NCBI RefSeq assembly: GCF_039539005.1
Contig: NZ_BAABCP010000001.1
Location: forward strand, 1,240,001 to 1,304,000
DNA from: Microbacterium soli
GTDB lineage: Bacteria > Actinomycetota > Actinomycetes > Actinomycetales > Microbacteriaceae
Length of the DNA stretch: 64,000 bases
Direction: 5' to 3'
The translations under genes were made by a program, and so were the position numbers. Under the pieces are notes generated by a model that was not told the DNA's origin, searched no databases, and saw only the letters and a list, made by a program, of their open reading frames with translations. Each line of letters starts with the position of its first letter. The first letter of the stretch is position 1. Of this stretch, positions 4,057-20,630 are shown piece after piece.

Positions 4057-4078
4057 GTGCGCGAGGGGGGACTTGAAC
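4057..4078. repeat. attL core (22-bp direct repeat)
   Basis: Identical to 20546-20567. It covers the acceptor stem and T-arm end of tRNA-Leu read on the minus strand. The sequence after 4078 no longer matches the tRNA, so this is the junction copy rather than a gene. Confidence 0.9.
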
Positions 4079-4195
4079 TGACCTCGACCCCCTCGCGCCG
4101 CGAATCTCGGTAGAGCGTTCTGCCGCATGAAACCAACGATCTACGACATCTGACCTGTGGATAACTCCATCGCGATACCCCAACCTACAGGTTGT

Positions 4196-4217
4196 TTAGC
4201 ACTTTCGTTAGCACTTT
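4196..4217 (+). repeat. Paired ttagcacttt motif, left end
   Basis: Two direct copies at 4196-4205 and 4208-4217, a 12-bp period. The same pair, also with a 12-bp period and in the same orientation, occurs near the right end of the element at 20464-20485. A looser single copy (agcacttt) is at 4305-4312. These are candidate arm-type binding sites of the element's integrase; it is an inference from position and repetition. Confidence 0.6.
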
Positions 4218-4361
4218 TTGCGGCTTGGGGAGCCGTGGAACCTCGGTTCGGGCTACACCCTTGGCCGACCTGCTACGAGGCTTCAACTCGCCAGTTCGTA
4301 TCAGAGCACTTTGAACCCGTCGGCTCCGGTTGGCGGCATCATTTGTCAGGTTGACTAGGCC

Positions 4362-5335
4362 GTGTTGATAAACGCCTTCGGGTGCCTCGTGGGCGAATCT
4401 TGGACCGTGTTGCGTGATGTGATCTCGGATGAGGCGTGGGCTGTGATCGGGCCGCTGTTCCCGACTGCGAAGTCGACGGGTCGGCCGCCGGTGGATCGGC
4501 GCACGGCGGTCGAGGCGATGGCGTGGCGGTTCCGGACCGGGGCACCGTGGCGGGACGTGCCGGAGCGGTTCGGGAACTGGAACACGATCTACAAGAACTT
4601 CAACCGGTGGTCCGAGCAGGGCGTGTGGGCGCGGGTGCTGGAGAAGACGCAGTCGCTCGCGCAGCAGTCCGGTGATCTGGATTGGGTCGCGTCGATCGAC
4701 TCCACGATCGTGCGCGTGCATCAGCATGGTGCGACCCTTCCGCGCACCACCGGGGGGCATTGTCGAACTACAAGAAGTTCGGTGACGAGCCGCCCGATCA
4801 TGCGATCGGCCGCTCCCGTGGCGGGTTGACGACGAAGAATCACCTGGTCTGCGACGGGAAGGGACGCGCTCTCGCGTTCATCCTCACCCCGGGGCAGGCG
4901 GCGGACACCAGCATGCTGCCCGCGACGCTGCGCGAGATCCGCGTCCCCGGCGCGAGGGGTAGGCCACGGTCGAGGCCGGACCGGGTGCTCGCGGACAGGG
5001 GCTACCCATCGAAGGCGAACCGGGCCGGGCTGCGCGAGCGCGGGATCGCGGCGACGATCCCGGAGCGTGAGGATCAGATCGCTCACCGACGCAAGCGGCG
5101 CGGCCGGCCGATCGACTTCGGTGACGAGCAGCGGGCCCGCTACCGCGACCGTAACGTCGTCGAGCGGTGCTTCAACAAGCTCAAGCAGTGGCGCGGGATA
5201 GCGATGCGCTCAGACAAGCTCGCCCGCAACTACCACGCCGGCCTCTGCCTCGCCGCCACTCTGCACTGGCTCGGCAGCATGTCGGCTCCGGAGCGCATCG
5301 AGGGAGATCAACTCGCGGTCACGGTATCCTTGTGA
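4362..5335 (+). CDS. IS5-family transposase, made by -1 frameshift
   Basis: DDE transposase split over two frames. The first frame (4362 onward; a likely true start is GTG at 4407, giving VLRDVISDEAW) has the DUF4096 N-terminal region and the first catalytic Asp in SIDSTIVRVHQHG. The second frame resumes at ALSNYKKFGD and has VLADRGYPSK (second Asp) and RNVVERCFNKLKQWRGIA (catalytic Glu). They join at the six-G run 4750-4755, where a -1 slip restores the frame, the usual programmed frameshift in the IS427-type group. All three acidic residues are present, so the element may be active. An ordinary frameshift mutation cannot be excluded. Confidence 0.85.
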
Positions 5336-5406
5336 GCATGATGACCAGCCAGGCCCGCGTCGGCCGCTCCCAGAACGGCGATCTGGTCGTGCGCTGATCC
5401 GCGCTC

Positions 5407-5450
5407 CTCCTTGTGTGAGTGACCCAAACTCACCCACACGACACAAGGAG
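5407..5450 (+). promoter_or_regulatory. Inverted repeat that masks the VOC gene ribosome site
   Basis: ctccttgtgt (5407-5416) pairs perfectly with acacaaggag (5441-5450), with an inner gtgagt/actcac pair. The right arm contains AAGGAG, the ribosome site of the ATG at 5455. In RNA this would hide the ribosome site; in DNA it could be an operator. It also blocks read-through translation from the transposase. Confidence 0.55.
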
Positions 5451-5454
5451 AATC

Positions 5455-5829
5455 ATGACAGCACACTTCAACCACACAATCATCGCCTCGATCGACGCTG
5501 CCGAAATGGCGGAGTTCTATCGTGACCTGCTCGAAGCCGACGACGCGCCCGCATGGGGCCCGTTCGTCAACGTCCAGATCGCCGGCGGGGTATTGCTGCA
5601 GTTCGCAGCCCCGCCGATGGAGTTCCCGCCGCAGCACTACGCATTTCTCCTCGAAGACCCCCACTTCGACCGTGCATACGCCAAGATCACTGACTACGGC
5701 TTCGATCACTGGGCAGACCCCCAGCGCTCCAAGCCCGGAGAGATCAACCACGAGCACGGCGGTCGAGGCGTCTACCTTCTCGATCCCTCAGGGCACTATC
5801 TCGAGCTGATCACCCAGCCGTACCTCTGA
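5455..5829 (+). CDS. VOC (glyoxalase/bleomycin-resistance) family protein
   Basis: A 124-residue single-module VOC protein. It starts with the usual beta strand and a metal-ligand His (FNHTIIASIDAAEMAEFYRD) and ends with YLLDPSGHYLELITQPY, where the Glu of YLELI is the typical second metal ligand. Members are small metal-binding enzymes or binding proteins (glyoxalases, dioxygenases, thiol transferases, bleomycin binders); the substrate here is unknown. It lies inside the IS5-type element, 120 bp after the transposase, with a good AAGGAG site, so it is a passenger gene. Confidence 0.8.
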   Translation: MTAHFNHTIIASIDAAEMAEFYRDLLEADDAPAWGPFVNVQIAGGVLLQFAAPPMEFPPQHYAFLLEDPHFDRAYAKITDYGFDHWADPQRSKPGEINHEHGGRGVYLLDPSGHYLELITQPYL

Positions 5830-5926
5830 CCCGCAGCGGGCGCGACGGAACATTCGCTCCGCCCACCCTGATGCTGACCGGGGGCGGGGCCGGCTCGAAA
5901 CCCCGACCCCGGTTTAGCAACACGGC

Positions 5927-6607
5927 CTAGAGCAGGCCGGCTTGATGGGCGAGTACGGCGGCCTGTACTCGACGCTCTACGCCGAGGCGTTGAAGCACTT
6001 CGCTGACATAGCCTTTGACTGTTGCTTCGGAGAGATACAAGCTGCTGGCGATTCGGGCGTTGTCCTCTCCTCGCGCGATCCCGAGGAGGACTTCGTGTTG
6101 ACGCGGGGTGAGTCGTGAGACAAGCTCGTGGGCGTCGGCTTGCCGCGTCATCGGACCGGCAGCGTTCTCCAGTAACCAGCGGGCCACGACGGGCGATAAT
6201 GCCGCACCGCCAGCTTGGACGGTGTGCACCGCGTTGACCAGGTCTTCCGGGGCGCTGGCTTTCGTCACATATCCGTCTACCGACACTTCTACAGCTCGTC
6301 GCAGATACTCAGTGTCGGCGAACGTCGTCAACACGACCAGTCGCGCAGGTACCCCTGCCGCGCGCAGGTCTGCGATCGCATCGAGCCCCGATCGGCCCGG
6401 CATCCTCACGTCCATCAACACAACGTCACACTGAGCCTTTCGTACCGCGGGAACGATGCCGAGACCGTCTCCGTGTTCGAGGACGACACGGATGCGTGGA
6501 TCGTTTTCGAGGATCGTGCGCAGGCCCGCTCGGATGAGCGGTTCGTCGTCGATCAGTGCGACACGGATAGCGTGGGAGCCGTCGTTGACATTCGGTGCGG
6601 GGGTCAT
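5927..6607 (-). CDS. NarL/LuxR-type response regulator
   Basis: A 226-residue regulator. The receiver domain (about 15-130) has the acidic pair near D20-D21, phospho-acceptor D66 in VVLMDVRMPG, Thr94 and Lys116. The LuxR helix-turn-helix is at about 165-220 (LTPRQHEVLLGIARGEDN ... LSEATVKGYVSEVLQRLGV). The start overlaps the kinase stop as ATGA, so the two are one operon. The TAG stop (5927-5929) straddles the junction with the IS5 element: T and A come from the target, G from the IS. The left flank shows that the original stop was also TAG, so the protein is unchanged. Confidence 0.92.
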   Translation of the reverse strand: MTPAPNVNDGSHAIRVALIDDEPLIRAGLRTILENDPRIRVVLEHGDGLGIVPAVRKAQCDVVLMDVRMPGRSGLDAIADLRAAGVPARLVVLTTFADTEYLRRAVEVSVDGYVTKASAPEDLVNAVHTVQAGGAALSPVVARWLLENAAGPMTRQADAHELVSRLTPRQHEVLLGIARGEDNARIASSLYLSEATVKGYVSEVLQRLGVERRVQAAVLAHQAGLL

Positions 6608-7737
6608 GGTGCTGGGATAGTCGTTGTCGAGTTCACTTGCCCGTTCGTGAAACAGACTTCGTAGACCTCGGTGCGCTCGAAGGGACTGAAAGTCGACTCG
6701 TAGTGGCGACAGTCCCCCGATCCCACTTGCTGCGGCGGTGCTTCCATCTCCACAATCGGAAGTCGGGAGCGGGCGCTGCTCTCAGACTCCCCGACGGTGA
6801 TGGCGGCGAAATCTGTGGCGGAAAGGCGGGAGAGCGCAGCCTGACCGAGCACCATGCCCACGGGAATCGCGATCATGAGCGCGGCAGTCGCCACGGGGAG
6901 AGCGATGAGCATCCGCCGCGTTCGGCGACGCCGATGCATGAGTGTACGTCGAGCTTCGTTCACTCCGGTGGTGGCCTGTAGCGGCAGACTCGCTCGAATA
7001 TGCCAACCGTCACCACTGGGTCCGGTTTTCAGTGAACCGCCCAACTCTTCGACCTGGGTGCGAAGCCCTCGCAGTCCGCGTCCGCCTGTGGGTGAGATGG
7101 TCGGCCCGACCGCGGTATCGACTGCATCGTTCTCCACACCGATGACGACCTCGTCACGGTCGCTTCGGATACGGATGCGGATCGGTGCTCCGGGTGCGTG
7201 GCGCAGCGCGTTCGTGCATCCCTCTCGCACCACCGAAATCGCGGTGCTGGTCGTGGTCGACGACGGCGTCGATCCAGCCAGGTTCCTCGCGACCTGAATA
7301 TCGACCTGCACCGGGGTCTCAGTTTGACGGACAGTATCGGCGATGTGTTCGATGCTTTCCTCCAATCCCGAGCCTTCTGCCTCCAGGCTGAGACCGCTGA
7401 CTGACCGATTCAGCGCCTCGACGCACTCTGCGATGGAAGCGCGCAACCGTTCGAGATCGGGTGCGAGATCCGTGCCTGCGCGCGTGCGTAGAGCGGCGGC
7501 CTCGATCGAAGCGAGCGTGAGGCGATGACCGAGGTCATCGTGGATCGTCCGCGAAAGCTCGGCGGCATGCGCCGAACGGATACGCTGCTCGGTCTCGACG
7601 GCGCGCGATTCTTTCTGCGCTGCGAGTTCCCAACCAAGCTCTGCCTCCTGACGGCGCAACAGCATCAGACGCCCCGTAAGCACAGCGGCGACGGACACTG
7701 GCAGCGAGATCGCGACCCAAACCAAGACATCGGACAT
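6604..7737 (-). CDS. Sensor histidine kinase with extra C-terminal membrane and external domain
   Basis: 377 residues, partner of the adjacent regulator. It has one N-terminal membrane helix (about 5-27), a HisKA_3 phospho-acceptor site RTIHDDLGHRLTL (His66), and an ATP-binding domain with GRGLRGLRTQVEELGG. Unusually the chain continues: a basic stretch RRRRTRR, a second membrane helix (about 278-300), and a 75-residue tail with two cysteines (GDCRHYES, YEVCFTNG) that would lie outside the cell. Most NarX-type kinases sense at the N-terminus, so this tail may be the sensor. It is divergent from the serine hydrolase gene, a plausible target. Confidence 0.88.
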   Translation of the reverse strand: MSDVLVWVAISLPVSVAAVLTGRLMLLRRQEAELGWELAAQKESRAVETEQRIRSAHAAELSRTIHDDLGHRLTLASIEAAALRTRAGTDLAPDLERLRASIAECVEALNRSVSGLSLEAEGSGLEESIEHIADTVRQTETPVQVDIQVARNLAGSTPSSTTTSTAISVVREGCTNALRHAPGAPIRIRIRSDRDEVVIGVENDAVDTAVGPTISPTGGRGLRGLRTQVEELGGSLKTGPSGDGWHIRASLPLQATTGVNEARRTLMHRRRRTRRMLIALPVATAALMIAIPVGMVLGQAALSRLSATDFAAITVGESESSARSRLPIVEMEAPPQQVGSGDCRHYESTFSPFERTEVYEVCFTNGQVNSTTTIPAP

Positions 7738-7858
7738 GCTTCATATTCTCCCGGCCTTTCCTTACTGCATACACCCGCCGTTCGGGGGTACTTTGCTAAG
7801 CGAGGAGGGGCCGGACGGCCCTGCCGCCGCGCGTTCACGAGTTTCTACCGTGAGATGC

Positions 7859-9343
7859 ATGAGCAGAACGGCAACAATAGCAACGACGACGCACTCCCGA
7901 TTCACGCGCACTCGTCTGGCCGCTGCCATTGGCGTGGCCCTCGCGCTCATGGCGCAGATCATGCCGATCCAGGCCGCCTCGGCTGCACCGCAGGAGGACG
8001 TCCAGGGATGGCTGGAGGAGGTGAACGCGAGCGGAGTTCCGGCGATCGCCGTTGTCGTCACACACGGGAACGAGGTCGCGGTGGAAGCTGGCGCAGGGCA
8101 GGTCGACGGTCGCCCGGTCGATGAGCACACATCATTCCGCATCGAGTCGCTCTCGAAATCGTTCACCGCGACCGCGGTCATGCAACTCGTCGAGGAGAAA
8201 CGGGTTGACCTCGATGTGCCGGTAACGCAGTATCTGCCGGATCTGCGACTCGATGACGAGCGTGCCGAGAGCATCACTGTGCGACAACTCCTGAATCAAT
8301 CGAGCGGAATCAGCGACGCGACCCTCGGGTTCGACCAATACGCTGCCGGACCGCAGACTCCGCGAGAAGCAGGCGAACTGCTGTCGCGCAGTCGACTCGC
8401 TTTCGACCCCGGAACGGATTGGGCCTACTCGAATCCCAACTACTGGATCTGCGCCCAGCTCATCGAAGAAGTCTCCGGCCAGGATCTGGATACCTATCTG
8501 CAACAGAACATCCTTGACCCGCTAGGAATGGATGAGACTACGAGTGCGTCCACCAGCGGTCAGGTTCAGGGTGCTCCGGGGCATGCGCAGGCGTTCGGGG
8601 CACCGGTTCGAGTCACCGGTCCCGACAGTTGGGTCGCTGGTGCTGGTGGCGTGACCTCCACGGCTCACGATCTGGGCATCTGGCTCCGCTTCCAGCACGG
8701 TGTGCTGCCCGGCGGTGAGGAGGTGCTGTCCGCGGCAATGCGCGACGAGATGCACCGTCGCCAAGCACCGGAAGGGGGCCTGTATGCGCTGGGCTGGTAC
8801 AGCGGCCCACCGGCAGACGGCGGCGTCGAACGGGTCTCACACTCCGGCGTCGGCGCGGGAACCAGCGCCTACCAGGGGTTGTTTCCCCACGAAACCGGTA
8901 TAGCAGTTCTACAGGCGAGTTCTGCACTGGATTCCTACGAGATAGCGGCCTCTCTGTATGAAGCATCTTCGACCGGGGAACTCGGAACTGCGCCACCGGC
9001 ACCCGGGCCGGGCCGGGACATCGTGATCACCCTCGTCGCCATTGCGCTTCTCGGGCTGTTTGCGCGAGGGATTGTGCGGAGCGCGCGTTGGGCAAGGCGT
9101 CTTGGGAAAATCCGCGCCACCATCACGCTCGGGATCGGCGCTGTCGTGGCAGCGGTGCTGTTCACAGTTCCAGTATGGGGCTCCGCTATCTTGGGACGCG
9201 CCGCGACCTGGCCTATCCTGTTCGCCGGAGCACCAATCCCCGTCATCGCGGTCCTAGCAATAGCGGTCGGAGTTGGCCTGCTCATCATCGCGCGACTCGC
9301 TCGGCTCATCGCCTATGTTGCAGCAGAACAGCATGGTCAATAA
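7859..9343 (+). CDS. Secreted or membrane-bound serine hydrolase, beta-lactamase/PBP-like
   Basis: 494 residues from the ATG at 7859; upstream in-frame codons exist but would lengthen the N-terminus without a signal start. There is a signal-like segment (RLAAAIGVALALMAQIM, cut near ASA-APQ). The catalytic domain has S97-L-S-K100 (SxxK), a YSN motif in DWAYSNPNYW and HSG in place of KTG, typical of class C beta-lactamase-like esterases and DD-peptidases. Three C-terminal membrane helices (about 385-490) anchor it, so the active site faces outside. It is divergent from the kinase-regulator pair and probably controlled by it. The substrate is not known. Confidence 0.85.
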   Translation: MSRTATIATTTHSRFTRTRLAAAIGVALALMAQIMPIQAASAAPQEDVQGWLEEVNASGVPAIAVVVTHGNEVAVEAGAGQVDGRPVDEHTSFRIESLSKSFTATAVMQLVEEKRVDLDVPVTQYLPDLRLDDERAESITVRQLLNQSSGISDATLGFDQYAAGPQTPREAGELLSRSRLAFDPGTDWAYSNPNYWICAQLIEEVSGQDLDTYLQQNILDPLGMDETTSASTSGQVQGAPGHAQAFGAPVRVTGPDSWVAGAGGVTSTAHDLGIWLRFQHGVLPGGEEVLSAAMRDEMHRRQAPEGGLYALGWYSGPPADGGVERVSHSGVGAGTSAYQGLFPHETGIAVLQASSALDSYEIAASLYEASSTGELGTAPPAPGPGRDIVITLVAIALLGLFARGIVRSARWARRLGKIRATITLGIGAVVAAVLFTVPVWGSAILGRAATWPILFAGAPIPVIAVLAIAVGVGLLIIARLARLIAYVAAEQHGQ

Positions 9344-9564
9344 ATGGAAAACGTAGAACCCTGCTGTCGATCGCGGCGCAGTCACTCTCCCGTCGATGGC
9401 AGCCAAGCCTTGCCTCGTCGATAAGCGCTGAGTACTCGCCCAACGCAGCAACGCTTCGCTTTCTCTCCTCCGCCCCACGTAGGCTCCTCTAACTCATCCC
9501 TGTTCTTCTGAATGAACGTATGCTACCGTGGTAGATAACATAGTTTCCGTATTGGAAATCCTGG
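9344..9564 (+). other. Intergenic region before the relaxase gene, possible oriT
   Basis: 221 bp without a gene. It holds a small inverted repeat ctacc-gt-ggtag (9523-9534) followed by an A/T-richer stretch (gataacatagtttccgtattgg). MobF relaxases usually nick an oriT near their own gene, often next to such short repeats, so this is the first place to look for oriT. The repeat could equally be an operator. Confidence 0.35.
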
Positions 9565-12500
9565 GTGGTGAGCCTCATGCATGGCGGCGTGATCCTGTTC
9601 CGGGGAACCGGGGCCGACGCGCGCCGCTATGTCGAGGCCGACCGCTCTCGCGCGGATGACTACTACCTCGGCGCTGACGCGTCCGTGGCGGATTTCACTG
9701 CGCTCGATGGTGCCGGGAACGTGACAGTCGCGCTGGGCCTCCACCCGGAGGCGTATGCAGCATGGGTGGACTGGGCGAGCCCGCTCACAGGCGAGTCGAT
9801 GGGCAGGCCCCGTTTGCCGGGCGAGGGGCGGCAGGGGTCTCCGCGGTTCGCGGAGATGGTCGTGAACGCCCCCAAGTCGCTGTCGATCGCCGCCGCGCTC
9901 CACCCCGAAGTCTCTGCTGCTCTCGACCGGGCGCAGCAGGACGCGGTGGCGGAGATTCAGCGGTGGCTCGCTCAGCACTCCGTGACCCGTGTGGGTCCGC
10001 GCGGCAAGCAGGAGGTTGTGCCCGTCCAGCAGTTGCAGACGGTGGCGGTGTCGCACCGCACGTCCCGGGCGGGTGATCCGCACCGGCATATCCACTTCCA
10101 GATCGGCACCCGCGTATGGGCGGCCGGGAAGCGGCGGGCGCTGGACACGGCGGCGTTGTTCCGGCAGCAGGGCGCGATTCGCGCGCTCGGTACTGCCGTG
10201 ATCGCCGCGCACCCGGAGCTTGCGGAGGTGCTGGATCGGCACGGCCTGACTCTTGACCCCGTATCGGGTGAGGTGGTCGAGCTCGAGCGGTTCAACGGCG
10301 TGATGAGCAAGCGCGGCGAGCAAGTGCGCCGACACCTCGAACGGTTCGAAGCGGAGTGGGAGGCGGCACATCCCGGCGAGTCGATGGGGCCGGTTGTCTC
10401 CGCGCGTCTCGCGGCGAAAGCGTGGGCGCACGAGCGGCCCGCGAAGAAGCCCACGACCCTCCGCGAAGAGCAGGCGTGGGTGACCGAGCTGCACGACGTC
10501 GGCTACGACCCGGCCAGGTTGCGCCGGCCTGCGCGCCGTACGCCGGCGTCACTTGACGACCTCTCCGTGCAGACCGTCGCGAACCGGGCACTGGATCGGT
10601 GCGCGGCTGGTGGTTCGGCGTGGACGAGGCATACGGTGCAGGAGCACGCGACACGGATCATGACCGAGTATGGCGTGCAAGCAGCGCCCGCCGAGATACG
10701 CGAGTTCGTGAACGTCGCAACGGCGTTGGCGATGGAGGATTGCTTCTCGATCCTCCCGCCTGGCACACCCGCCCCGGAGCATGTGGCGCACCGCACCAGC
10801 CTGCGTGTCGTGCAGGCGGAGACGGAGCTGCGCGACCTCATCGCCGCGCGCATCCCGCAACAAGACCCGGAGCACCCGGACGTAAGCCGGGCGGCGCGCA
10901 GGCGCGGCCTGGACGCCGGGCAGGAGCGCGCCGCCGCCGCGGTCGCATCGACCGACCCGCTCGTGATCGGAGAAGGAGCAGCAGGTAGCGGGAAGACGAC
11001 GATGCTCGGTGTTGCAGTCGAAGCCGCCGCACTGCACGGGCGGGCGTCGCGGGTAGTTGCGCCGACGCTGCGCGCCGCGCAGGTCGCACACGATGAACTC
11101 GGCGTGCCCGCGACCAGTGTTGCGGCGCTCGTGCACGCTCACGGATGGCGATGGAACAGCGACGGCGTATGGACACGCCTCGCACCCGGCGACACCGACC
11201 CCGACACCGGGCACACCTATCACGGCCCAGTCGAGGGCGCGCGGCTGGCGCGGGGTGAGCGGGTGATCGTCGACGAGGCCGGAATGCTCGACCAGGACAC
11301 CGCAATCGCCCTCCTGACCGTCTGCGATGAGGCGGGCGCAACGGTCGCACTCGTCGGGGATCGCGCGCAGCTCGCCGCCGTCGGACGCGGCGGGGTGCTC
11401 GACATGGCCGCACAGCTCCGGGGCCGCACGTTCGACATGGCGCAGGTGCACCGTTTCACTGACCGCGCCTACGCCGACCTGACGGTGCGGATGCGGGACG
11501 GTGGCAACCCCGGCGAGGTGTTCGACCAACTCACCGCGCTCGGCCTCGTACGCCTGCACGCCAGCAACGAAGACGTGCGCGAGCACATCGCCAAGCGAAG
11601 CCGGGAGGGAGAAACCGTCACGGTCACGTCCAATGACGAGGCTCGCGCTGTGAACGCGCGTATCCGTGAGGAACGGGTGGCGCGTGGTGAGGTCGACGAC
11701 CATCGCACCGCGACCGGCAACGACGGCCTCCCCATCGGTGCTGGGGACGTGATCCAAACGCGCAAGAACAACACCAGCATCGGTGTGGCGAACCGTCAGA
11801 ACTGGATCGTGCAACGCGTCGAGCAGGACGGGGCATTGCGTGTGCGCGAGGCGGGGAACGGGCGGAAGCGGCAGCGCACCGTGCGCCTGCCCGCCGAGTA
11901 TGTGGCCGAACACGCGCACCTGTCGTATGCGGCGACCGCCTACGGGGTGCAGGGCGCGACCGTCACCGGGTCGCACACGATCCTCACCGACGCCACCAGC
12001 GCGGCAGGTGTCTATGTCGGCATGACTCGCGGCCGCGAACAGAACCTGCTGCACGTCGTTGCCGAGACCCAGGAGCAGGCGCGGGAGCAGTTCATCGCGG
12101 CGATGGAGCGGGACCGTGCCGACCGAGGCCTCACCGACGCGACCGAACGCGCAGCAGACGCTGTGCGGGGGCTCGTGAACGATGGGCCGGTACGGCTCGT
12201 GCAGACGGAGCGGGCACGCCTGACGCAGCTCATCGAACGCGCAGAGCAGCACGCAGCACTGTTCGAGGATGCCGCCGCCCGATTCGCCGCACAGAAGCAA
12301 GCGCATCACGTCGAAGCCGAGGAGCACGCCGAGCGTGTGACCCATGCCAAGGCGCTTGCAGAGCACACCCGGCACGCGTTCACCGCCGAAGTGGAGACGC
12401 GGGTGCGGACAGATGGGCAAGAACTCGTGGAGGCTCGCGCGCAGCTTCAGGCCGCTCGCGACGCGGCGCGTGCGGCGAAGTTCGGGCGCAGGCGCACCGC

Positions 12501-13035: not shown

Positions 13036-13050
13036 CCCGGCCTGGTGACG

Positions 13051-13833
13051 CTACAGAGACAGCCCACCGTGGGGCGTTGGCGGCTCCGGGCGGCGCGCGC
13101 CCGTGCCGAACGACCCCGCGGCCGAATGAGAACGTCGGCGGCGGGCTGCGTCGAGTTCGCGATCCAGCACGTCCGGCGTCCGCGAGACACCCCGCGCTTG
13201 GAAGCTGCGCACCTGCTCCACCGTCACCGCCTCCCCAGCTCGCCCGCCTGCGTCGAGCCGGTGGAGGTTCGGCCGGATCAGCGCGTCGATGCCTGTGTGG
13301 TCTTCCACGATCGCGAGGGTGCGGGCGTGGGCGAACACGTCGCCGGGAATCTGAGACCAGTCGATGACCCATCCGGCGTCGCGGGCGAGCTGGTTGAACA
13401 TGATGTGCTGACTGCGGGTGTTCACGTCACGGAACGGGTGGATCGCGGTCGTCTCACCCCACACCCAGGCCAGCCCGTCGGAGAACGCATCCGCGTCCAG
13501 GCCGCGGAGATGGTCACGGGCAGCGAGTTCCCCGAAGACGCGCTCAGCCTCGGGCACGATGAACGGCGGACGGCAGTGTGCGATACCCGTGCCGCCGGGG
13601 TGCGTGTCGGTGTCGCGGATGTCACCACCCCAGACATACAGATCGGCAGTCAGATGCCGGTGGATGGCCTGCAAGTGGGCGAGGTCGTATCGGCCGGGGA
13701 TGGGGTGCTCGGTGAGTTCGACCATGCGCTGATGGATCGCGGCCGTCTCCACGGCTTTCCAGCGGTCGTAGTCGGTGATGCCGAGCTTGTTGATCAGAAC
13801 GAGGCTGTTCGGGTAGCTGTAGCGGTCGGGCAC
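13051..13833 (-). CDS. Fic/DOC family protein with altered Fic motif
   Basis: 260 residues. Fic enzymes transfer AMP or other groups to target proteins and are often toxins. The motif is HPFRDVNTRSQ (132-142); the standard is HPFx(D/E)GNGRxxR. The catalytic His132, the acidic D136, N138 and R140 remain, but both glycines are replaced (V137, T139) and the last Arg is His143. The altered anion loop may change the nucleotide donor or reduce activity. GTG start at 13833, 21 bp after an antitoxin-like gene on the same strand, convergent with the relaxase gene. The Arg-rich last 60 residues look disordered. Confidence 0.8.
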   Translation of the reverse strand: MPDRYSYPNSLVLINKLGITDYDRWKAVETAAIHQRMVELTEHPIPGRYDLAHLQAIHRHLTADLYVWGGDIRDTDTHPGGTGIAHCRPPFIVPEAERVFGELAARDHLRGLDADAFSDGLAWVWGETTAIHPFRDVNTRSQHIMFNQLARDAGWVIDWSQIPGDVFAHARTLAIVEDHTGIDALIRPNLHRLDAGGRAGEAVTVEQVRSFQARGVSRTPDVLDRELDAARRRRSHSAAGSFGTGARRPEPPTPHGGLSL

Positions 13834-13854
13834 TGGTGCTCCTGCCCGGACGGG

Positions 13855-14055
13855 TTACTTCTCGGGGAAGCGGTCAAGCGCCGCAGCGATCGCCTCGCGC
13901 ACCGCCTCATCCGCGGACAGTTCACCGCGCACCTGACGGCGGGCAATCTCTCGGTCCGCCTCAGTCACGACCGCACCGGCCGTGACCTGCCCGGCCTCGA
14001 CCTCCGCGAGCACTCGCCGGACATGGGCCTCGGATACCGGAGTCTTGAGAGCCAT
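13855..14055 (-). CDS. VbhA-like antitoxin partner of the Fic protein
   Basis: 66 residues, mostly helical and charged, ending with REIARRQVRGELSADEAV, which resembles the C-terminal part of VbhA-type Fic inhibitors. It directly precedes the Fic gene, the usual order for antitoxin and Fic toxin. The inhibitory (S/T)xxxE(G/N) motif is not obvious here, so family membership rests on size, position and the RGELSADEAV tail. If right, it holds the Fic protein inactive and helps keep the element in the cell. Confidence 0.6.
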   Translation of the reverse strand: MALKTPVSEAHVRRVLAEVEAGQVTAGAVVTEADREIARRQVRGELSADEAVREAIAAALDRFPEK

Positions 14056-14164
14056 GCGGGGTGCCTCCTTATGGTTGGCGTTCTGTACCTAGTTTACGTC
14101 GCCCCACCGACATCCACCCGGAAGCCAGGGGCGGGGGTGCCGATTCGGCACAGCCAGCGGAGTG

Positions 14165-14389
14165 TCAGGATTCGCCGGTATCAGTCCCGACATCTGCGAA
14201 GAGGGCGAGGAACTTCTCACGCGGGATCACGATGCGCCGACCGAGCTTCACATGCGGGATGGTGCCCTCGTTGATGCTCGTGGTGATCGTGCGGGGATCG
14301 ACGCCGAGTGCTTCGGCGGCTTCTTTGCGGGTGATGACGAGGCTGCGTCGCCCACGGAGGTCGTCCATGTCGAGGGTGCTCTGCCGCAT
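14165..14389 (-). CDS. Excisionase-like MerR/HTH_17 DNA-binding protein
   Basis: 74 residues with one winged helix-turn-helix: ITRKEAAEALGVDPRTITTS, then the wing IPHVKLGRRIVIPREKF. This is the pattern of small excisionase-family proteins that bend DNA and steer integrases to excision. It is divergent from the regulator-integrase operon with about 100 bp between, which should hold both promoters. It could also be a plain repressor. Confidence 0.75.
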   Translation of the reverse strand: MRQSTLDMDDLRGRRSLVITRKEAAEALGVDPRTITTSINEGTIPHVKLGRRIVIPREKFLALFADVGTDTGES

Positions 14390-14487
14390 GTCGCACCATC
14401 CGTTCGTGTCAGCGCCGAGAAATATGGTTCATCCCACCGTAGAGAATCGCACTTGCGCTGTCAAGCATTGCGCTGTAGTTTTCTACT

Positions 14488-15141
14488 ATGGAAAACGAGA
14501 GGGTGCGGGGCAACCCCGCAGGCATCACGAACACGCACGTCGCACAGAACATCCGTGCGGCCCGGCAAGCGATCGGTATGGACTTGCGCACCATGTCCGA
14601 CGGGCTGAGAGCCGCAGGGCGCAAGCTCTCCACCTCGGGCATCAGCAAGTTGGAGGCCGGGGATCGCCGCGTGGACGTGGACGACCTGACCGTGATCGCC
14701 TACCTGCTGCGCACCACCCCCGCCGCGCTCCTGACCCCGCCCGACGAGCAGACGACCCTCACCGGGGTGCCGGAAGGGTATGAGCCGGAGGAGATCGACA
14801 GGTGGATGCGCGGGGAACTCGTGCTCACCGATGAGGGGCTGTTCAACTACTGGCAGCAGGAATGGGTGATCTGCACCGACCGCATCCACCACCTCGAAAC
14901 CACCCTCGCAGGCATGACCGCCCCAAGCAAGGACGATCCCGAGAAGCCGAGCGCCCACCCCAAGACCATCGCCGCCTACCAGGAACGTTTGGAGACAGCG
15001 CGGGCACGCGCGCGTGTGATCCGGGAGCGAGGCGTGCAACTCGACCCGGAGGGGCGTGTGTTCAACGCCGCCGACTACATCCAGAACTACGGCGATACCC
15101 ATCGGCCCGGGCAGACGACGGCAAGGAGCACCCTGTCATGA
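14488..15141 (+). CDS. XRE-family transcriptional regulator
   Basis: 217 residues. The helix-turn-helix lies at about 18-75 (HVAQNIRAARQAIGMDLRTM ... STSGISKLEAGDRRVDVDDL). The rest is a charged helical region with no clear match. The stop overlaps the integrase start (ATGA-type overlap at 15138-15141), so the regulator and integrase are one operon; it probably controls its own promoter and thereby integrase level, in opposition to the divergent excisionase-like gene. Confidence 0.85.
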   Translation: MENERVRGNPAGITNTHVAQNIRAARQAIGMDLRTMSDGLRAAGRKLSTSGISKLEAGDRRVDVDDLTVIAYLLRTTPAALLTPPDEQTTLTGVPEGYEPEEIDRWMRGELVLTDEGLFNYWQQEWVICTDRIHHLETTLAGMTAPSKDDPEKPSAHPKTIAAYQERLETARARARVIRERGVQLDPEGRVFNAADYIQNYGDTHRPGQTTARSTLS

Positions 15142-16400
15142 CGAAGAAGCCACAGTCCGCAGGGCGGGGCGGCGGGGGTGAGAAGCAGCAGCGGCGCTCC
15201 CGTTCCCGGCAGCCCGGTTCGATCCAGGCTTACGACACCGACATGGGGAAGCGGTGGCGGTTCCAGATCTACGTCCTGAAAGACCCCGAATACCCCGAGA
15301 TGGGATCGCGGCGGCTGACTCGTTCCGGGTTCACCAGCACCGATGAGGCGAACGACGCCTTGCAGGAGGCGTTGAAGCAGCGCAAGCAGAACGAGAAGTT
15401 CGGCAACAAGGTGCCGACCGTGGGGACTTACGCGGATGAGTGGGTGGCAGGACTCAAGCTCGCGGCGTCCACGATCACCGGGTACAAGAAGATCATCCGC
15501 AACCACATCAGCCCCCAGCTCGGCGCGATCCGGCTCGACAAGCTCACCGCCACCCGTATCGCCCGCCACTACCGCGACCTCGAAGACCACGGCCGCAACG
15601 ACGAATACGGCAAAGGACAGCCGCTCTCTGCCAACAGCGTCCACAAGGTGCATGTCGTGCTGGGTGCGATCCTCGACGCGGCGATCGACGACGGGCACCT
15701 GACGGTGAACCCGGCGAAGAAGAAGCGCACCGTGAAGCCGCCGAAGTCCAGCGAGGTGCGGGCGCAGAAACCCGAGATCGCGACCTGGACGGCCGAGCAG
15801 TTGCAGACCTTCCTCACCTGGAACCGCGACACCCTCGACGACGAACTGTTCCCGCTGTGGCGACTCATCGCCTACACCGGCATGCGCCGCTCCGAAGCGC
15901 TCGCCCTCAAGTGGTCGGACATCAACACGAAGACGATGCGAGTCAGCATCCGCCGCGCCGTCGATACCGACGACTGGACGAAGACGAAGACCACCAAGAC
16001 CGGGCAAGCCCGCGTCATCGACGTGGACACCGAGACATTGAAGGTGCTCGCCTCCTACAAGGTCGCGCGGGCCGAGGTGTCGTTCGAGCTTGCGAAAGCC
16101 GACGCCTACATCTTCGGCGACGACGACGGGAAGCTCCGCTCACCCGACGCGATGACCAGCCGCTGGGATCGCCGCCTCAAATGGGCCACCGCGAAGTTCG
16201 ACTCCCTACACCGGGTCACAATCAAAGGACTGCGTCACACCCACGCGACCCTGCTGCTCGAACTCGGCGAACACCCCAAGGTCGTGCAAGAGCGGCTCGG
16301 GCACTCCACGATCACCACGACGATGAACATCTACTCTCACGTCACCCCGACCATGCAGCGCTCCGCTGTAGACCGCTTCGCCGCCCATCTCAACTCGTAA
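15138..16400 (+). CDS. int: Tyrosine site-specific integrase
   Basis: 420 residues from the ATG at 15138 (ribosome site AAGGAG, 9 nt upstream). An N-terminal arm-binding domain covers about 25-95, a core-binding SAM-like domain about 95-195, and the catalytic domain about 215-415. Catalytic residues are R250 (TGMRRSE), R366 (KGLRHTHATL, with K363 at the place often held by His), H389 (LGHSTITTT) and nucleophile Y399 (NIYSHV). It should recombine the 22-bp core in tRNA-Leu. Unusually it is 4 kb from the nearest att site, because lipid cargo lies between it and attR. Confidence 0.93.
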   Translation: MTKKPQSAGRGGGGEKQQRRSRSRQPGSIQAYDTDMGKRWRFQIYVLKDPEYPEMGSRRLTRSGFTSTDEANDALQEALKQRKQNEKFGNKVPTVGTYADEWVAGLKLAASTITGYKKIIRNHISPQLGAIRLDKLTATRIARHYRDLEDHGRNDEYGKGQPLSANSVHKVHVVLGAILDAAIDDGHLTVNPAKKKRTVKPPKSSEVRAQKPEIATWTAEQLQTFLTWNRDTLDDELFPLWRLIAYTGMRRSEALALKWSDINTKTMRVSIRRAVDTDDWTKTKTTKTGQARVIDVDTETLKVLASYKVARAEVSFELAKADAYIFGDDDGKLRSPDAMTSRWDRRLKWATAKFDSLHRVTIKGLRHTHATLLLELGEHPKVVQERLGHSTITTTMNIYSHVTPTMQRSAVDRFAAHLNS

Positions 16401-16645
16401 GACCTATGGTCGTGCGTCGGCATCGCAACGCTAAAGGGACCCTGTCGTCGCCGATACGGGACGCCGTTGCATGAGCCGCATGATTCCGGTCACCTTCTAG
16501 TCTCCGAGAGCGTCTCGGCCTGTAGCCGAATGGCGCGAGAACAGTTAGCCTCTCGCAATTTCCCGAGGTGGCGTCGGCGTCAGCATGAAGAGTCGCCCGG
16601 CCAGCCCCGGCTACGAGAGACTGCCGCGGGAATATCATTTCGGAG

Positions 16646-17074
16646 TCACGGATGATCGGAGCGCTCGAGAGTGTTCGCGAGCGTCTGGATGAACTTGCCG
16701 ACCGCATTAGGGGCTGGCAGGTCGATTCGGAGTCGGATGCTTCCCGCTTTCGGTCCTGTGCCGTTGACGATTGCCGCCCCGCCGAGTTGGTCGAGAAGCG
16801 GGCCTATGGCGTCTGCTGCATCGGCGGGCAGATGGCCGACGCCGCGTCCGTTGGAGGTGACGGCGACCCCGGCTGGGGATCTTCGCGTGCGGGGCTGGGT
16901 GCGGAGGACGTAGGTGCGAGGCGCTTGGCTGTCGCGTTCGCGATCGTTCACGAGGTAGTGGGTCCGTTCCAGGGCGACAGGCCGTGTCGGCAGGTGCCGG
17001 AGATCGGGAAGTTCGTGGTGGCGACTGATGCGACCGGTTGTGATGTGTAGAAGTTGTTCCCACCATGCGGGCAT
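16646..17074 (-). CDS. Hypothetical protein, 142 aa
   Basis: Start ATG at 17074 with GGAGAAGG 7 nt upstream; a longer frame to 17122 has no ribosome site. The N-terminus begins MPAWWEQLLHITTGRISRHH; the second half contains VAVTSNGRGVGHLPADAADA followed by a beta-rich end. That half recalls small beta domains fused to actinobacterial DNA-handling proteins, but I cannot assign a family. It lies alone after the integrase, convergent with it. Codon use fits the neighbours. Confidence 0.6.
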   Translation of the reverse strand: MPAWWEQLLHITTGRISRHHELPDLRHLPTRPVALERTHYLVNDRERDSQAPRTYVLRTQPRTRRSPAGVAVTSNGRGVGHLPADAADAIGPLLDQLGGAAIVNGTGPKAGSIRLRIDLPAPNAVGKFIQTLANTLERSDHP

Positions 17075-17243
17075 GAGCGCCCCTTCTCCTCGGATCGGTA
17101 TGCCATCACCGCGGCGGAGCACTCTCCCACTATGTCAGCCCGTGCTGTGAATCCTCCGGTCAGCCGCAGGCCCGAACAGATCGCGCAGAGGCAATTTCGT
17201 TGATCACCGGTATTCTCGGGCGATTGAGCGTAGCGTGAGGAGC

Positions 17244-17408
17244 ATGTGGACAGTTCTTCTCATCTTGCTTGTGGCATGGGTGGTGCTGTCGATCGTGGGA
17301 TTCGTATTCGAGGGCCTGCTCTGGTTGGCCATCATCGGAATCGTGCTCTTCATCGGCACCCTGATCTTCGGGATACTCCGGCAGCGCGCCAAGCGAGCCA
17401 AGGCGTAG
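17244..17408 (+). CDS. Small two-helix membrane protein, 54 aa
   Basis: ATG at 17244 with GTGAGGAGC directly upstream, TAG at 17406-17408. The chain is nearly all hydrophobic: MWTVLLILLVAWVVLSIVGF, then FEGLLWLAIIGIVLFIGTLI, then a basic tail RQRAKRAKA, giving two membrane helices with both ends inside the cell. It resembles small hydrophobic proteins common in actinobacteria. Convergent with the lipid kinase gene. Function unknown. Confidence 0.65.
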   Translation: MWTVLLILLVAWVVLSIVGFVFEGLLWLAIIGIVLFIGTLIFGILRQRAKRAKA

Positions 17409-17467
17409 TCACCCCGCGCGGGACGCACGGGGCGCGGTCCACCTCCCTTGCCGTGGCGCCGAGGTTT

Positions 17468-18511
17468 CTAAAGGCGTGACGGCCGCTGCCGGGCGGCGGT
17501 GCCCTTCTCCACCGAGTTCGTTTCGGCCGCCACGCGCACATGCAGGGCGCCTGGGCGGACACTGACACGAACACGGGTGATGTGGCCGAAGCTGTCGCCG
17601 TCGAGTTCGATGAGGTGAGGGGCGTCGAACCGGGCGTCGAACCGGGTTCCTTGAACGTATGCGAGTGCGTGGAGGTCGGGTTTCTGCTGGAGGATCTTGC
17701 GGCTGAGCGGGGAGCGGCGGGCGAGGCCTTGCAGGGTGAGGCGGGTTCCGATCCGCGCCCACCCGAAGCGTCCTGTCGGGCGCATCATCACGACGTCCAG
17801 CAGCCCGTCGTCGATGATCGCAGCGGGGATCAGGAGCATGTTCCCGGTGAGGGTTCCGCAGTTGCCGACGATGACCGTGTGCGCCCGCGTCGACCTCACC
17901 CGCCCTCCGTCGATTCGGTAGTCGAGATGGAAGAGCTTGTTCACGATGACCGAGCGGGCGATCGGTGTGACGTACGCGAACCAGCCGAGATGCTTTTTCG
18001 CGATGGTGCTCGTGCTCTCCGCCATCTCCGCATCCAGTCCGATGCCGGCCATGACCATGAACGTGTGCGAACGCCGGGCGCCGCTCTCGTCCTCGAGCTC
18101 AGCCACCCCGACATCCACGGACCGGTCCTCACCTGCGAAGGCAACGGAGACGCAGGCGGCGATGTCGTTGAGCGGCGCACCGATATCACGTGCGAGGAGA
18201 TTGCCGGTGCCCAGGGGAACCAGCGCGACCGGGATGCCCGTGCCTTGCATCACCTCCGCGACGGCTCGGACCGTGCCGTCGCCGCCCGCGACCATCACCA
18301 CCGCCGGATCAGCAGCGAGAGCGTGCTCCGCGGCGGCCCGGCCCGCGTCGTCGCTGCGGGTCTCGTACCAGCGCGTCTGCGCCCACCCGTGCTGGATTTC
18401 ATACTCCGCGACCACGGGGCGAAGCCGCTCCAGCGGGGTCTTCGCGGGGTTATAAACGACGACGGCGGCGGCGTGCCGTCGCCCGGCTGCCGGGTGGTCG
18501 CGCGTGCTCAC
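17468..18511 (-). CDS. Diacylglycerol/lipid kinase family protein
   Basis: 347 residues. The N-terminal domain has the nucleotide-binding GGDGTVRAV loop (about 76-84) and the VPLGTGNLLARD motif of the DAGK/YegS family; the C-terminal beta-sandwich has the conserved DDGLLDVVMMRP. Members phosphorylate lipid hydroxyls such as diacylglycerol or sphingoid bases at the inner membrane face. The start overlaps the stop of the desaturase gene (ATGA at 18508-18511), so the two enzymes are coupled and may act on the same lipids. Cargo of the mobile element. Confidence 0.88.
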   Translation of the reverse strand: MSTRDHPAAGRRHAAAVVVYNPAKTPLERLRPVVAEYEIQHGWAQTRWYETRSDDAGRAAAEHALAADPAVVMVAGGDGTVRAVAEVMQGTGIPVALVPLGTGNLLARDIGAPLNDIAACVSVAFAGEDRSVDVGVAELEDESGARRSHTFMVMAGIGLDAEMAESTSTIAKKHLGWFAYVTPIARSVIVNKLFHLDYRIDGGRVRSTRAHTVIVGNCGTLTGNMLLIPAAIIDDGLLDVVMMRPTGRFGWARIGTRLTLQGLARRSPLSRKILQQKPDLHALAYVQGTRFDARFDAPHLIELDGDSFGHITRVRVSVRPGALHVRVAAETNSVEKGTAARQRPSRL

Positions 18512-19620
18512 TGCGGGGCTGCGGTGATGTAACGGCGCTGCTCGACCAGGGGGCAGGTGAACACGTCGCGCTCCCCGAGCCCGACACGGTTGATGTACCG
18601 CACGATGATCGCATAGGACGCCAGCAGCCCGGTCTGCACATACGGCACATCATGGCTCCGGCAGTACGCGGCGATGATAGGCGCCGCCTTGCGCAGGTGA
18701 GGGCGCGGCATGGACGGAAAGAGGTGATGCTCGATCTGATAATTCAACCCGCCCATCGCGGTGTCGAGCAGACGTCCGCCGCGGACGTTTCGGCTCATCA
18801 TCGCCTGGCGGCGCAGGAAGTCGAAGCTCGCATCGCTCGGCACGATCGGCATCCCCTTGTGGTTCGGGGCGAACGAGACGCCCATGTAGAACCCGAAGAG
18901 CCCGAGCTGCACCGCGAGGAACACGAACGCGATGCCCGGCGACAGCACGAGGAAGACGAGCACCGGGAAACCGACCAGCCGGACCAAGAGGAACCCGATC
19001 TCGACCCATCGCCTGCTCAACGGACCGCGCGTGACCACCCGACGCACCCCGGACGCATGCAGCGAGACACCTTCCAGGAGCAGGATCGGGAAGAAGAAGA
19101 TCCCCTGATGCGAGCGCAACCACGACAGAACCCGCCCTCTCGGCGCGGCACGCTCGGGAGCCACGACGATCACCGGCAGCTCGATGTCCGGATCAGACCC
19201 CAGCTTGTTCGGATTCGCGTGGTGACGGGTGTGCTTGTGCTGCCACCACCCGTAGCTCATCCCCACCAGCAGGTCGCCGAGGACAAGGCTCACCCAATCG
19301 TTCCACTTGCCCGAAACGAAGATCTGCCGGTGCGCCGAATCATGCCCGAGAAAGGCGATCTGCGTGAACACTACCGCCAGGAACACCGCCGTGAACAGCT
19401 GCCACCACGTGTCACCGATCCACACGAACGCCAACAGCCCGCCGGTGAGCACGAGCGGCAAGCCGATCAGCTTCGACCAGTAATACCCATATCGGCGACG
19501 CAGCAACCCCTGATCCCGGATCGTCTTCGCCAGGGCCGTGAACTCACTCCCAGCCCTGCCGCTCCGCCGATCCATCGAGCGCGGTGTGGTCGAACGAAAC
19601 CCACCCATGATGCGCCCCAC
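18508..19620 (-). CDS. Membrane fatty acid desaturase
   Basis: 370 residues with the three His boxes of acyl-lipid or acyl-CoA desaturases: HDSAH (about 93-97), HKHTRHH (about 127-133) and QIEHHLFP (about 298-305), and two paired hydrophobic regions between them. The third box with Q is typical of front-end and linoleoyl-type enzymes as well as actinobacterial acyl-lipid desaturases. It should place a double bond in membrane acyl chains using di-iron and an electron donor that is not encoded nearby. GTG start at 19620, or ATG at 19608. Second gene of a three-gene operon. Confidence 0.9.
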   Translation of the reverse strand: MGRIMGGFRSTTPRSMDRRSGRAGSEFTALAKTIRDQGLLRRRYGYYWSKLIGLPLVLTGGLLAFVWIGDTWWQLFTAVFLAVVFTQIAFLGHDSAHRQIFVSGKWNDWVSLVLGDLLVGMSYGWWQHKHTRHHANPNKLGSDPDIELPVIVVAPERAAPRGRVLSWLRSHQGIFFFPILLLEGVSLHASGVRRVVTRGPLSRRWVEIGFLLVRLVGFPVLVFLVLSPGIAFVFLAVQLGLFGFYMGVSFAPNHKGMPIVPSDASFDFLRRQAMMSRNVRGGRLLDTAMGGLNYQIEHHLFPSMPRPHLRKAAPIIAAYCRSHDVPYVQTGLLASYAIIVRYINRVGLGERDVFTCPLVEQRRYITAAPQ

Positions 19621-19641
19621 ATCCCACGGCCACGGACGCCA

Positions 19642-20181
19642 TCAACGCCCGTGACCACCCTCGTCAGTCCAGTCGTCGATACGGGCACGATCGTCGGTCG
19701 CCGCGACACGCCGATCCGGCTCAGGCACTCGTGTCTCGGAGGTGCGGAACGTCACCGACTCCGCGAGAGCCGCGACAGAGGCCGCTCTGTCATGCTCACC
19801 CGCAGCCGCCTCGCGGAACCGGACCGCCGCCGCATCCTGCTTCGCACGGACACCCTCGCTGATCTCCGCCAGGCGGTCAGCGAGCACGCCGCCGAGACCG
19901 TCGCGCAACTCCTCAAGATTCGTGTTCGCGATCTCCAAGCGACGATCCGAGATCGTCACCTCGACAGTCGAGTACCCTGCCTTCGCGAGACGTTCCCGCG
20001 TCTCGCTCCCCAGGATCTCCGTGATCTCGTCCCGTTCGGGGCGGCGCGTGAACACCGCCTCCACCGTGTAACGATCCGGGGCCTCATCAGTCATCAGCGC
20101 CGCAGGCAACGAACCCACCAGCACCGATCCCAGGCCCAGCGTCGCGGTATCTGCACCGCTCGTTCGTGTCTGCGTATCCAT
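19642..20181 (-). CDS. Hypothetical protein, first gene of the lipid operon
   Basis: 179 residues, ATG at 20181. Mixed alpha/beta, with a helical, charged second half (about 90-135) and a disordered acidic C-terminus. No membrane helix is clear apart from a weakly hydrophobic stretch LGLGSVLVGSLPAALM near residue 15-30. No family recognised. It ends 21 bp before the desaturase start on the same strand, so it is probably co-transcribed with the desaturase and lipid kinase and could assist them. The 364 bp to its right, up to attR, hold no gene that I can see. Confidence 0.6.
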   Translation of the reverse strand: MDTQTRTSGADTATLGLGSVLVGSLPAALMTDEAPDRYTVEAVFTRRPERDEITEILGSETRERLAKAGYSTVEVTISDRRLEIANTNLEELRDGLGGVLADRLAEISEGVRAKQDAAAVRFREAAAGEHDRAASVAALAESVTFRTSETRVPEPDRRVAATDDRARIDDWTDEGGHGR

Positions 20182-20463
20182 AACCCGACGTTACGCCCCC
20201 AACATGTACGCCTCACAGGTTCAACCAAACCCGCGCGCGCCGCAGAAAACTCCAGGAAACAACCGACCCCAGCACAGCGGTCGCACTCTCACCGGGGCTC
20301 GACACCGTCACATGTCTACGCATGGCACCGTGACCTGCACCACGCGCAGGGGACGAGCCGATGAACCGCCCCTTCAACGCGCGAAGGACAAATCTCCACC
20401 TCAGCCCGAGGAAGCCCTGAATGTCACCGTCGTTGGCGTCTTACGATCCTTCCGGATCCGCGC

Positions 20464-20485
20464 TTAGCACTTTTTCTAGCACTTC
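20464..20485 (+). repeat. Paired ttagcacttt motif, right end
   Basis: ttagcacttt at 20464-20473 and ctagcacttc at 20476-20485, again a 12-bp period and the same orientation as the left-end pair. It lies 60 bp inside attR. Candidate integrase arm sites. Confidence 0.6.
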
Positions 20486-20492
20486 CAACACG

Positions 20493-20537
20493 AATGGCCC
20501 CCGACCCGAGAGATAGAATCCCAGGTCAGGGGCCATT
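20493..20537 (-). terminator. Element-borne hairpin after tRNA-Leu
   Basis: aatggcccccgacc (20493-20506) pairs with ggtcaggggccatt (20524-20537), one mismatch. It sits just inside the element, downstream of the intact tRNA-Leu, and would replace the terminator displaced beyond attL. No clear T tract follows on the minus strand, so it may act mainly as a 3'-end stabiliser. Confidence 0.6.
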
Positions 20538-20546
20538 TCATTCGTG

Positions 20547-20630
<84 letters not shown>

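Follow-up and report, generated by a model that had tools for sequence, protein, structure and literature searches.

A 64,000-nucleotide stretch of the Microbacterium soli genome (contig NZ_BAABCP010000001.1, positions 1,240,001 to 1,304,000; hereafter the window, whose numbering is used for all features) very probably contains an integrative mobilizable element (IME) that is excised and inserted by its own integrase (Int) and excisionase (Xis), mobilized by a MobF relaxase through a helper, and equipped with a lipid module that alters the host membrane. The element spans 16.5 kb (4057-20567) between perfect direct repeats at a tRNA-Leu gene, and its nearest copy, in another species, points to recent transfer together with the lipid genes. 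The lipid module itself recurs in the genus, repeatedly at the 3' ends of tRNA genes.

Boundaries and attachment sites

As proposed by the first-pass annotation, which was made from the letters of the window, the element is bounded by exact 22-bp copies of the tRNA-Leu(CAG) 3' end (GTGCGCGAGGGGGGACTTGAAC): attL at 4057-4078 and attR at 20546-20567, the latter forming the 3' terminus of the restored tRNA gene that is the integration target (20546-20630, minus strand; ARAGORN). The 18-bp core of this repeat has no further copy on either strand of the window. Just inside both ends are paired TAGCACTT repeats (4197/4209 and 20465/20477), with no others in the window. The left pair of arm-type sites, TTAGCACTTT, has a 12-bp spacing (4196-4217, plus strand) and the right pair lies at 20464-20484 (plus strand); the same pairs are found at the ends of related elements, and they would be the sites bound by Int. 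In its site-specific integration at a tRNA gene, with direct repeats, the element agrees with canonical IMEs. To the right of the tRNA are a gene that, from its sequence, we take to be fhaA (FHA type, 20955-21665) and a gene for a PP2C phosphatase. The G+C content is 0.63-0.66 over most of the element, 0.69-0.71 in mobF and about 0.67-0.73 in the near flanks, but composition alone proves nothing because other parts of the window have an equally low G+C.

The element family in Microbacterium

Relatives of the integrase, counted at E<=1e-30 among 198 Microbacterium genomes, are present in 29, and 11 of these (M. soli included) carry a near full-length copy of at least 69% identity. Thirteen related regions were taken from integrase carriers for comparison. 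Both 22-bp repeats were recovered in 8 of the 13, and the remaining five either run to the end of the stretch or contig or yielded a single copy; MobF is at least partly present in 11 and a helix-turn-helix (HTH) protein in 12. The targets are tRNA-Leu genes of the CAG or GAG type, and the shared layout is attL, cargo bay 1, mobF, toxin slot, xis, HTH, int, cargo bay 2 and attR. According to the gene lists of six elements, the toxin slot between mobF and xis holds either Fic or a zeta-type protein (the latter by inspection), and in three of the six bay 2 is a single gene (by inspection an alpha/beta hydrolase, an acetyltransferase or a membrane protein), whereas the element of the window has a 3.8-kb module in this place. 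The termini also belong to the family: over the first 174 bp, five other elements are 68-91% identical to that of the window, and over the last 90 bp seven others are 73-83% identical, as against 30-44% at seven empty sites.

Other arrangements of related sequences were seen. One 39-kb stretch beside tRNA-Leu holds two related integrase/MobF elements (L094/L095, G033:C28), an apparent tandem accretion. A 5.2-kb relative lies at another tRNA-Leu (L128, G198:C2, about 6930-12200), with left and right ends 91% and 96.9% identical to those of the window; its cargo is of sulfur type (by inspection), with no integrase match and no lipid operon.

Transfer between species, relics and empty sites

In Microbacterium sp. 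NIBRBAC000506063 (NZ_CP072876.1), the block from mobF to attR, including the lipid genes, is present at the tRNA-Leu/fhaA locus of that genome. It is 98.98% identical to the block of the window over 6,757 bp and 96.66% identical over 4,163 bp, while the flanks are 73.8-77.0% identical (four flanking pieces longer than 700 bp). An identity of 97-99% in the block against 74-77% outside it clearly indicates a recent transfer between species of the element together with its lipid cargo. The attL of this copy lies about 20.4 kb away, with an attL end 91% identical to that of the window, and its bay 1 holds a copper-type set of BlaI-type, M48-type, CopC, CtaG and P-type ATPase genes. Since the two copies share the module and differ in bay 1, the lipid module travelled with the element, and the contents of bay 1 were replaced. 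Some reading frames of the NIBRBAC000506063 copy are split and its tRNA repeat is one G shorter, for which sequencing error is the likely cause.

Lipid genes occur at the same tRNA in two further genomes. In G004 the module is 91.8% identical over 4,016 bp between flanks of 76.2 and 80.0%; there is no integrase in the stretch read, and the arm sites have decayed. The sequence adjoining the tRNA is 73% identical to the right end of the element (30-44% at empty sites), and because it is thus the decayed right end of the element itself, the locus is best read as a relic and not as a native position of the operon. In G154 (L131), the genes for the 179-aa protein of the module and the lipid kinase adjoin tRNA-Leu(CAG), and since the right end is absent (27%), they reached this tRNA gene independently. 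An operon at this chromosomal place without the 22-bp repeat had been named in advance as evidence against the element; taken literally, G004 and the two genes of G154 are such cases, but the former is a decayed relic and the latter arrived separately.

The empty sites that had been expected in relatives were found in part. All seven close relatives examined (7/7) have a single uninterrupted tRNA-Leu repeat and no related integrase, but none shares the left flank of the window. This flank is itself variable: the genes of an ABC exporter (369-2893), outside attL, are not at tRNA-Leu in five relative loci, the permease gene is present in 7 of 366 genomes (M. soli included), and no att core was detected within about 1.5 kb on each side of it in the five loci.

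The lipid module

The module occupies bay 2, where an operon of lipid kinase, desaturase and 179-aa protein genes reads leftwards between int and attR. The kinase (17468-18511, minus strand) is of the YegS/DgkB type, with matches to PF00781 and PF19279 and a GGDGT motif, and its relatives in the PDB are DgkB, BmrU and YegS chains. The fatty acid desaturase (18508-19620, minus strand; PF00487, 9.6e-40) has three histidine boxes, HDSAH, HTRHH and QIEHH, and no solved relative by sequence. The 179-aa protein (19642-20181, minus strand), which serves as the marker of the module, has no Pfam or NCBIfam match; its AlphaFold2 model (pLDDT 73) has no significant match in the PDB (best E 0.056), and no fold could be assigned. 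Closer to int are a HIRAN-like protein (16646-17122, minus strand), whose PF08797 score of 22.3 bits is below the cut-off of 24.7, and a 57-aa hydrophobic membrane protein (17235-17408, plus strand). The ratio of nonsynonymous to synonymous substitution (dN/dS) was 0.06-0.36 in 13 gene comparisons of four module proteins, and because the desaturase and kinase also keep their motifs, an effect of the module on the membrane is likely.

Recurrence of the module at other loci

The first-pass annotation had described a mobilizable tRNA-Leu element with a lipid cargo and had considered this cargo unusual. The element, its cargo and its horizontal transfer are borne out by the comparisons above, but the view that such cargo is unusual finds no support within Microbacterium, where the module recurs: genes for the 179-aa protein were found at 49 loci in 47 of the 198 genomes. 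Desaturases of at least 68% identity occur at 75 loci in 71 of these genomes, among the matches listed; a desaturase match of any kind is present in 195, the remaining matches being mostly 46-54% identical. When all 49 loci of the 179-aa protein were read, 27 had a desaturase in the cluster, 20 a kinase, 32 either of the two and 13 a HIRAN-like protein, with gene orders and strands that differ between loci. From these associations, the 179-aa protein evidently marks a recurring module with the desaturase, the lipid kinase and/or the HIRAN-like protein.

Fifteen of the 49 loci lie at most 1 kb from a tRNA gene, and all 15 are on its 3' side. Seven types of tRNA are involved (Leu 3, Gln 4, Met 2, Pro 2, Val 2, Lys 1 and Arg 1). 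As a control, 31 stretches were picked by hand at arbitrary round positions (619,721 bp in all, 10 tRNAs); they give an expectation of 3.2% for lying within 1 kb of a tRNA and of 1.5% for its 3' side alone. A binomial test of the 3'-side excess yields p = 6e-16, the significance of which is overstated, as the loci share ancestry. A distal repeat of the tRNA end was clear in the window and at three more loci, of 18 tRNA-side loci or relatives tested, with scores of 22-44.5 against up to 12 for reverse strands. The three are small islands: one at tRNA-Met in G040 (2.8 kb; 38-bp repeat, 1 mismatch), one at tRNA-Val in G069 (3.7 kb; 37-bp repeat, 2 mismatches) and one at tRNA-Pro in EYE_78 (3.0 kb; 47-bp repeat, 1 mismatch), the last with an integrase remnant. 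Outside Microbacterium, a plasmid of Leifsonia sp. ZF2019 (NZ_CP065038.1, L209) carries relatives of the desaturase (69%) and, in part, of the 179-aa protein (60% over 51%). They adjoin BlaI, M56, P-type ATPase and CtaG genes, a copper set of the kind found in bay 1 of NIBRBAC000506063.

It is conceivable, if rather doubtful, that the genes for the 179-aa protein, desaturase and kinase make up a cassette for membrane remodelling, one that moves independently among Microbacteriaceae and has repeatedly entered tRNA 3' ends (Leu, Gln, Met, Val, Pro, Lys and Arg). It would change the envelope in a way open to selection, and the 179-aa protein would be its dedicated partner or regulator. Such a cassette would take three forms, namely att-flanked islands of about 3 kb without integrase, bay-2 cargo of MobF IMEs, and a plasmid passenger beside copper genes.

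Relaxase, candidate oriT and helper functions

Like other IMEs, the element encodes its own relaxase, a MobF relaxase-helicase (9565-13035, plus strand) with TrwC (PF08751) and AAA_30 domains, an HRHIH motif and an NCBIfam MobF score of 121 bits (cut-off 100). Upstream, at 9506-9537 (plus strand), lies GAATGAACGTATGCTACCGTGGTAG, a sequence with the inverted repeat CTACC/GGTAG that we regard as a candidate origin of transfer (oriT). A block of this kind precedes mobF in all eight elements aligned, exactly where bay-1 homology stops, and the DNA further upstream is unrelated; the exact pattern is kept in seven of the eight, with L086 one base off. A related block, its repeat changed yet still complementary, is found on two plasmids whose relaxase is 69% identical.

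No coupling-protein domain (PF02534) was found among the open reading frames (ORFs) of the element, and the sole match found in the genome is on contig C3, outside it. The Pfam scan of these ORFs gave no mating channel, VirB4-type profiles not having been searched. This absence of transfer functions is typical of IMEs, and it agrees with the earlier statement that secretion and coupling genes are missing, the secretion genes being judged from the Pfam scan alone. Contig C3 of M. soli (G000, L132; 39,983 bp) encodes the coupling protein, a MobA-type relaxase and metal-type genes, and is a possible conjugative helper. Coupling-protein genes are present in 83 of the 198 genomes; among the 11 genomes with a full-length integrase (at least 69% identity) 9 have one, compared with 74 of 187 others (one-sided Fisher p = 0.007).

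Other genes of the element

From the left, the gene order is an insertion sequence (IS) with a VOC gene, a two-component pair, a serine hydrolase, MobF, Fic with a small partner, HTH_17, the HTH-like protein, integrase, the HIRAN-like protein, the 57-aa membrane protein and the lipid operon. The IS5-family insertion (about 4355-5930, plus strand) has its transposase in two overlapping frames (4362-4829 and 4682-5335), a VOC/glyoxalase-family passenger (5419-5829), and ends formed by 19-bp terminal inverted repeats that include a CTAG target duplication. The rest of bay 1 consists of a LuxR-type response regulator (5927-6607, minus strand; PF00072, PF00196), a histidine kinase (6604-7737, minus strand; PF07730, PF02518) and an exported serine hydrolase of beta-lactamase fold (7736-9343, plus strand; PF00144), for which no NCBIfam resistance model scored above its cut-off.

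In the toxin slot, a Fic protein (13051-13833, minus strand; PF02661) is preceded by a 66-aa ORF (13855-14055, minus strand) that is probably an antitoxin, being VbhA-like by inspection only. The canonical Fic motif is HPFxxGNGR, from which the HPFRDVNTRS of this protein departs; its best NCBIfam model is VbhT, far below the cut-off of that model. Next are an excisionase-like 74-aa HTH_17 protein (14165-14389, minus strand; PF12728, 1.2e-10), the HTH-like protein beside int (14488-15141, plus strand), which has no Pfam match, and the tyrosine integrase (15138-16400, plus strand; PF00589, PF14659), whose ORF is 14862-16400 with the start taken as 15138. An integrase and an excisionase are thus encoded, as in IMEs, the excisionase being assigned by its HTH_17 match only. 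The first-pass annotation had correctly listed the integrase, excisionase-like protein, relaxase, Fic protein with its small ORF, and lipid operon; it had missed the IS5 and VOC insertion, the response regulator/histidine kinase pair, the serine hydrolase, the weak HIRAN match and the 57-aa membrane protein.

Comparison with known element classes

By its gene content the element is an IME, a known kind, and is new in its MobF relaxase and lipid cargo. Canonical IMEs are described as 5-50 kb long, with an integrase, their own relaxase, cargo and toxin-antitoxin genes, and no coupling protein or channel (PMC5704250). The element of the window has these gene features in common with, for example, ATE-1 of Trueperella, and differs in using MobF and in carrying lipid genes. 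According to that 2017 review, the canonical IMEs then known use MobP, MobQ, MobV or MobC and none MobF, and the single IME named from Actinobacteria has MobV (PMC5704250). MobF mobilizable plasmids of Actinobacteria (pLW1 and a plasmid of M. paraoxydans) have a relaxase 69% identical over 76% of its length and related upstream sequence, whereas the element of the window is chromosomal and integrates at tRNA-Leu.

Actinomycete integrative and conjugative elements (AICEs) likewise integrate at tRNA genes by a tyrosine integrase, but use an FtsK-like translocase and a replication initiator (PMC3218068). No FtsK-like or Rep gene was found among the ORFs scanned against Pfam, and the element has a MobF relaxase instead. 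Nor does it resemble an integrative and conjugative element of the type IV secretion system kind, PF02534 being absent from its interior and VirB4 being judged from the Pfam scan of its ORFs only. Cis-mobilizable elements (CIMEs) are approached by the module islands of G040 and G069 and by the 5.2-kb island of G198 C2, which have att repeats and no integrase match; those of G040 and G069 have att repeats without integration or transfer genes, as CIMEs do, whether these were lost or never present, while L108 differs in keeping an integrase remnant. VbhT/VbhA is similar in pairing Fic with a small upstream ORF beside a conjugation gene, but the Fic of the window is far under the cut-off of the VbhT model and its motif is altered. 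No paper on the element or on a lipid cargo of such elements was found among open-licence papers, and no priority is claimed.

Proposed mechanism and alternative explanations

We propose that the tyrosine integrase and the small excisionase-like protein recombine the 22-bp tRNA-Leu core with the aid of arm-type sites on both sides, so that the element would excise as a circle and insert at tRNA-Leu genes without disrupting the tRNA. MobF would nick the oriT just upstream of mobF, and a resident conjugative element would supply the coupling protein and channel through which the nicked strand exits. Fic and its small partner may act as an addiction module, and cargo would be swapped in the two bays. 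The 179-aa protein, desaturase, lipid kinase and HIRAN-like protein of bay 2 would most likely add unsaturation and recycle diacylglycerol in the host membrane, the module itself being a repeated passenger of tRNA-gene islands in Microbacteriaceae.

Several points weigh against this reading. All of its support is sequence, and no excised circle, transfer or lipid change has been observed. No exact before/after pair was found, and in relatives the left flank of the window is away from tRNA-Leu. The host has paralogues of the desaturase (47%) and kinase (40%), so the lipid cargo may be redundant, and two carriers (G174 and G118) have no coupling-protein match. As to the module, 34 of the 49 loci have no tRNA within 1 kb and 17 have the 179-aa protein without desaturase or kinase; the loci are non-independent, the control stretches were chosen by hand, and 14 of the 18 tRNA-side loci have no clear distal repeat at the length read, G095 being suggestive and the attL of NIBRBAC000506063 lying beyond the stretch used.

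Among other explanations, it is extremely unlikely that the lipid operon is native at tRNA-Leu and that the element was inserted beside it. G004 and G154 do carry the operon, whole or in part, beside tRNA-Leu with no integrase in the stretch read, but in the window both ends of the element enclose it, with int on one side and the tRNA on the other; the right end belongs to the family, and all seven empty sites lack the operon. This explanation was rejected because it is contradicted by the identities to G004 (92%) and NIBRBAC000506063 (97%), far above those of the flanks. We also give little credence to a dead relic that moves only by homologous recombination around the tRNA gene. The IS in bay 1, the missing transfer machinery and the decay of several relatives (G004, L089, L090 and L103-like fragments in G103) would fit such a relic; against it, the int, mobF, fic and xis frames are open, the NIBRBAC000506063 copy differs very little and stops abruptly at the tRNA, and the lipid genes are under purifying selection between distant carriers.

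Somewhat less improbable, though still unlikely, is that the lipid genes are neutral freight of no benefit to host or element. Bay 2 of relatives holds quite different genes and the host paralogues point the same way, but the low dN/dS, the repeated company of the 179-aa protein and desaturase or kinase in varying orders and strands, and the presence on the Leifsonia plasmid count against it. Finally, the module might change the surface met by phages or mating partners, in defence or exclusion, and not fluidity. It is mobile and island-borne with variable gene sets, and the Fic protein of the element matches a PADLOC candidate-defence model; PADLOC gave no match for the desaturase, kinase, HIRAN-like or 179-aa protein, and we consider such a role improbable.

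Significance

The preferred reading, an IME with a membrane-active cargo, would add a defined MobF-type family to an actinobacterial genus, and because its ends are clear, empty sites and relics are at hand, and one transfer between species is very recent, excision, helper dependence and oriT become directly testable. Enzymes of membrane lipids rarely come up in discussions of mobile cargo, yet they are recurrent here, and this recurrence is of more interest than their presence in the element of the window. Comparing strains with and without the module would show directly whether the membrane of a host is tuned by its mobile elements.

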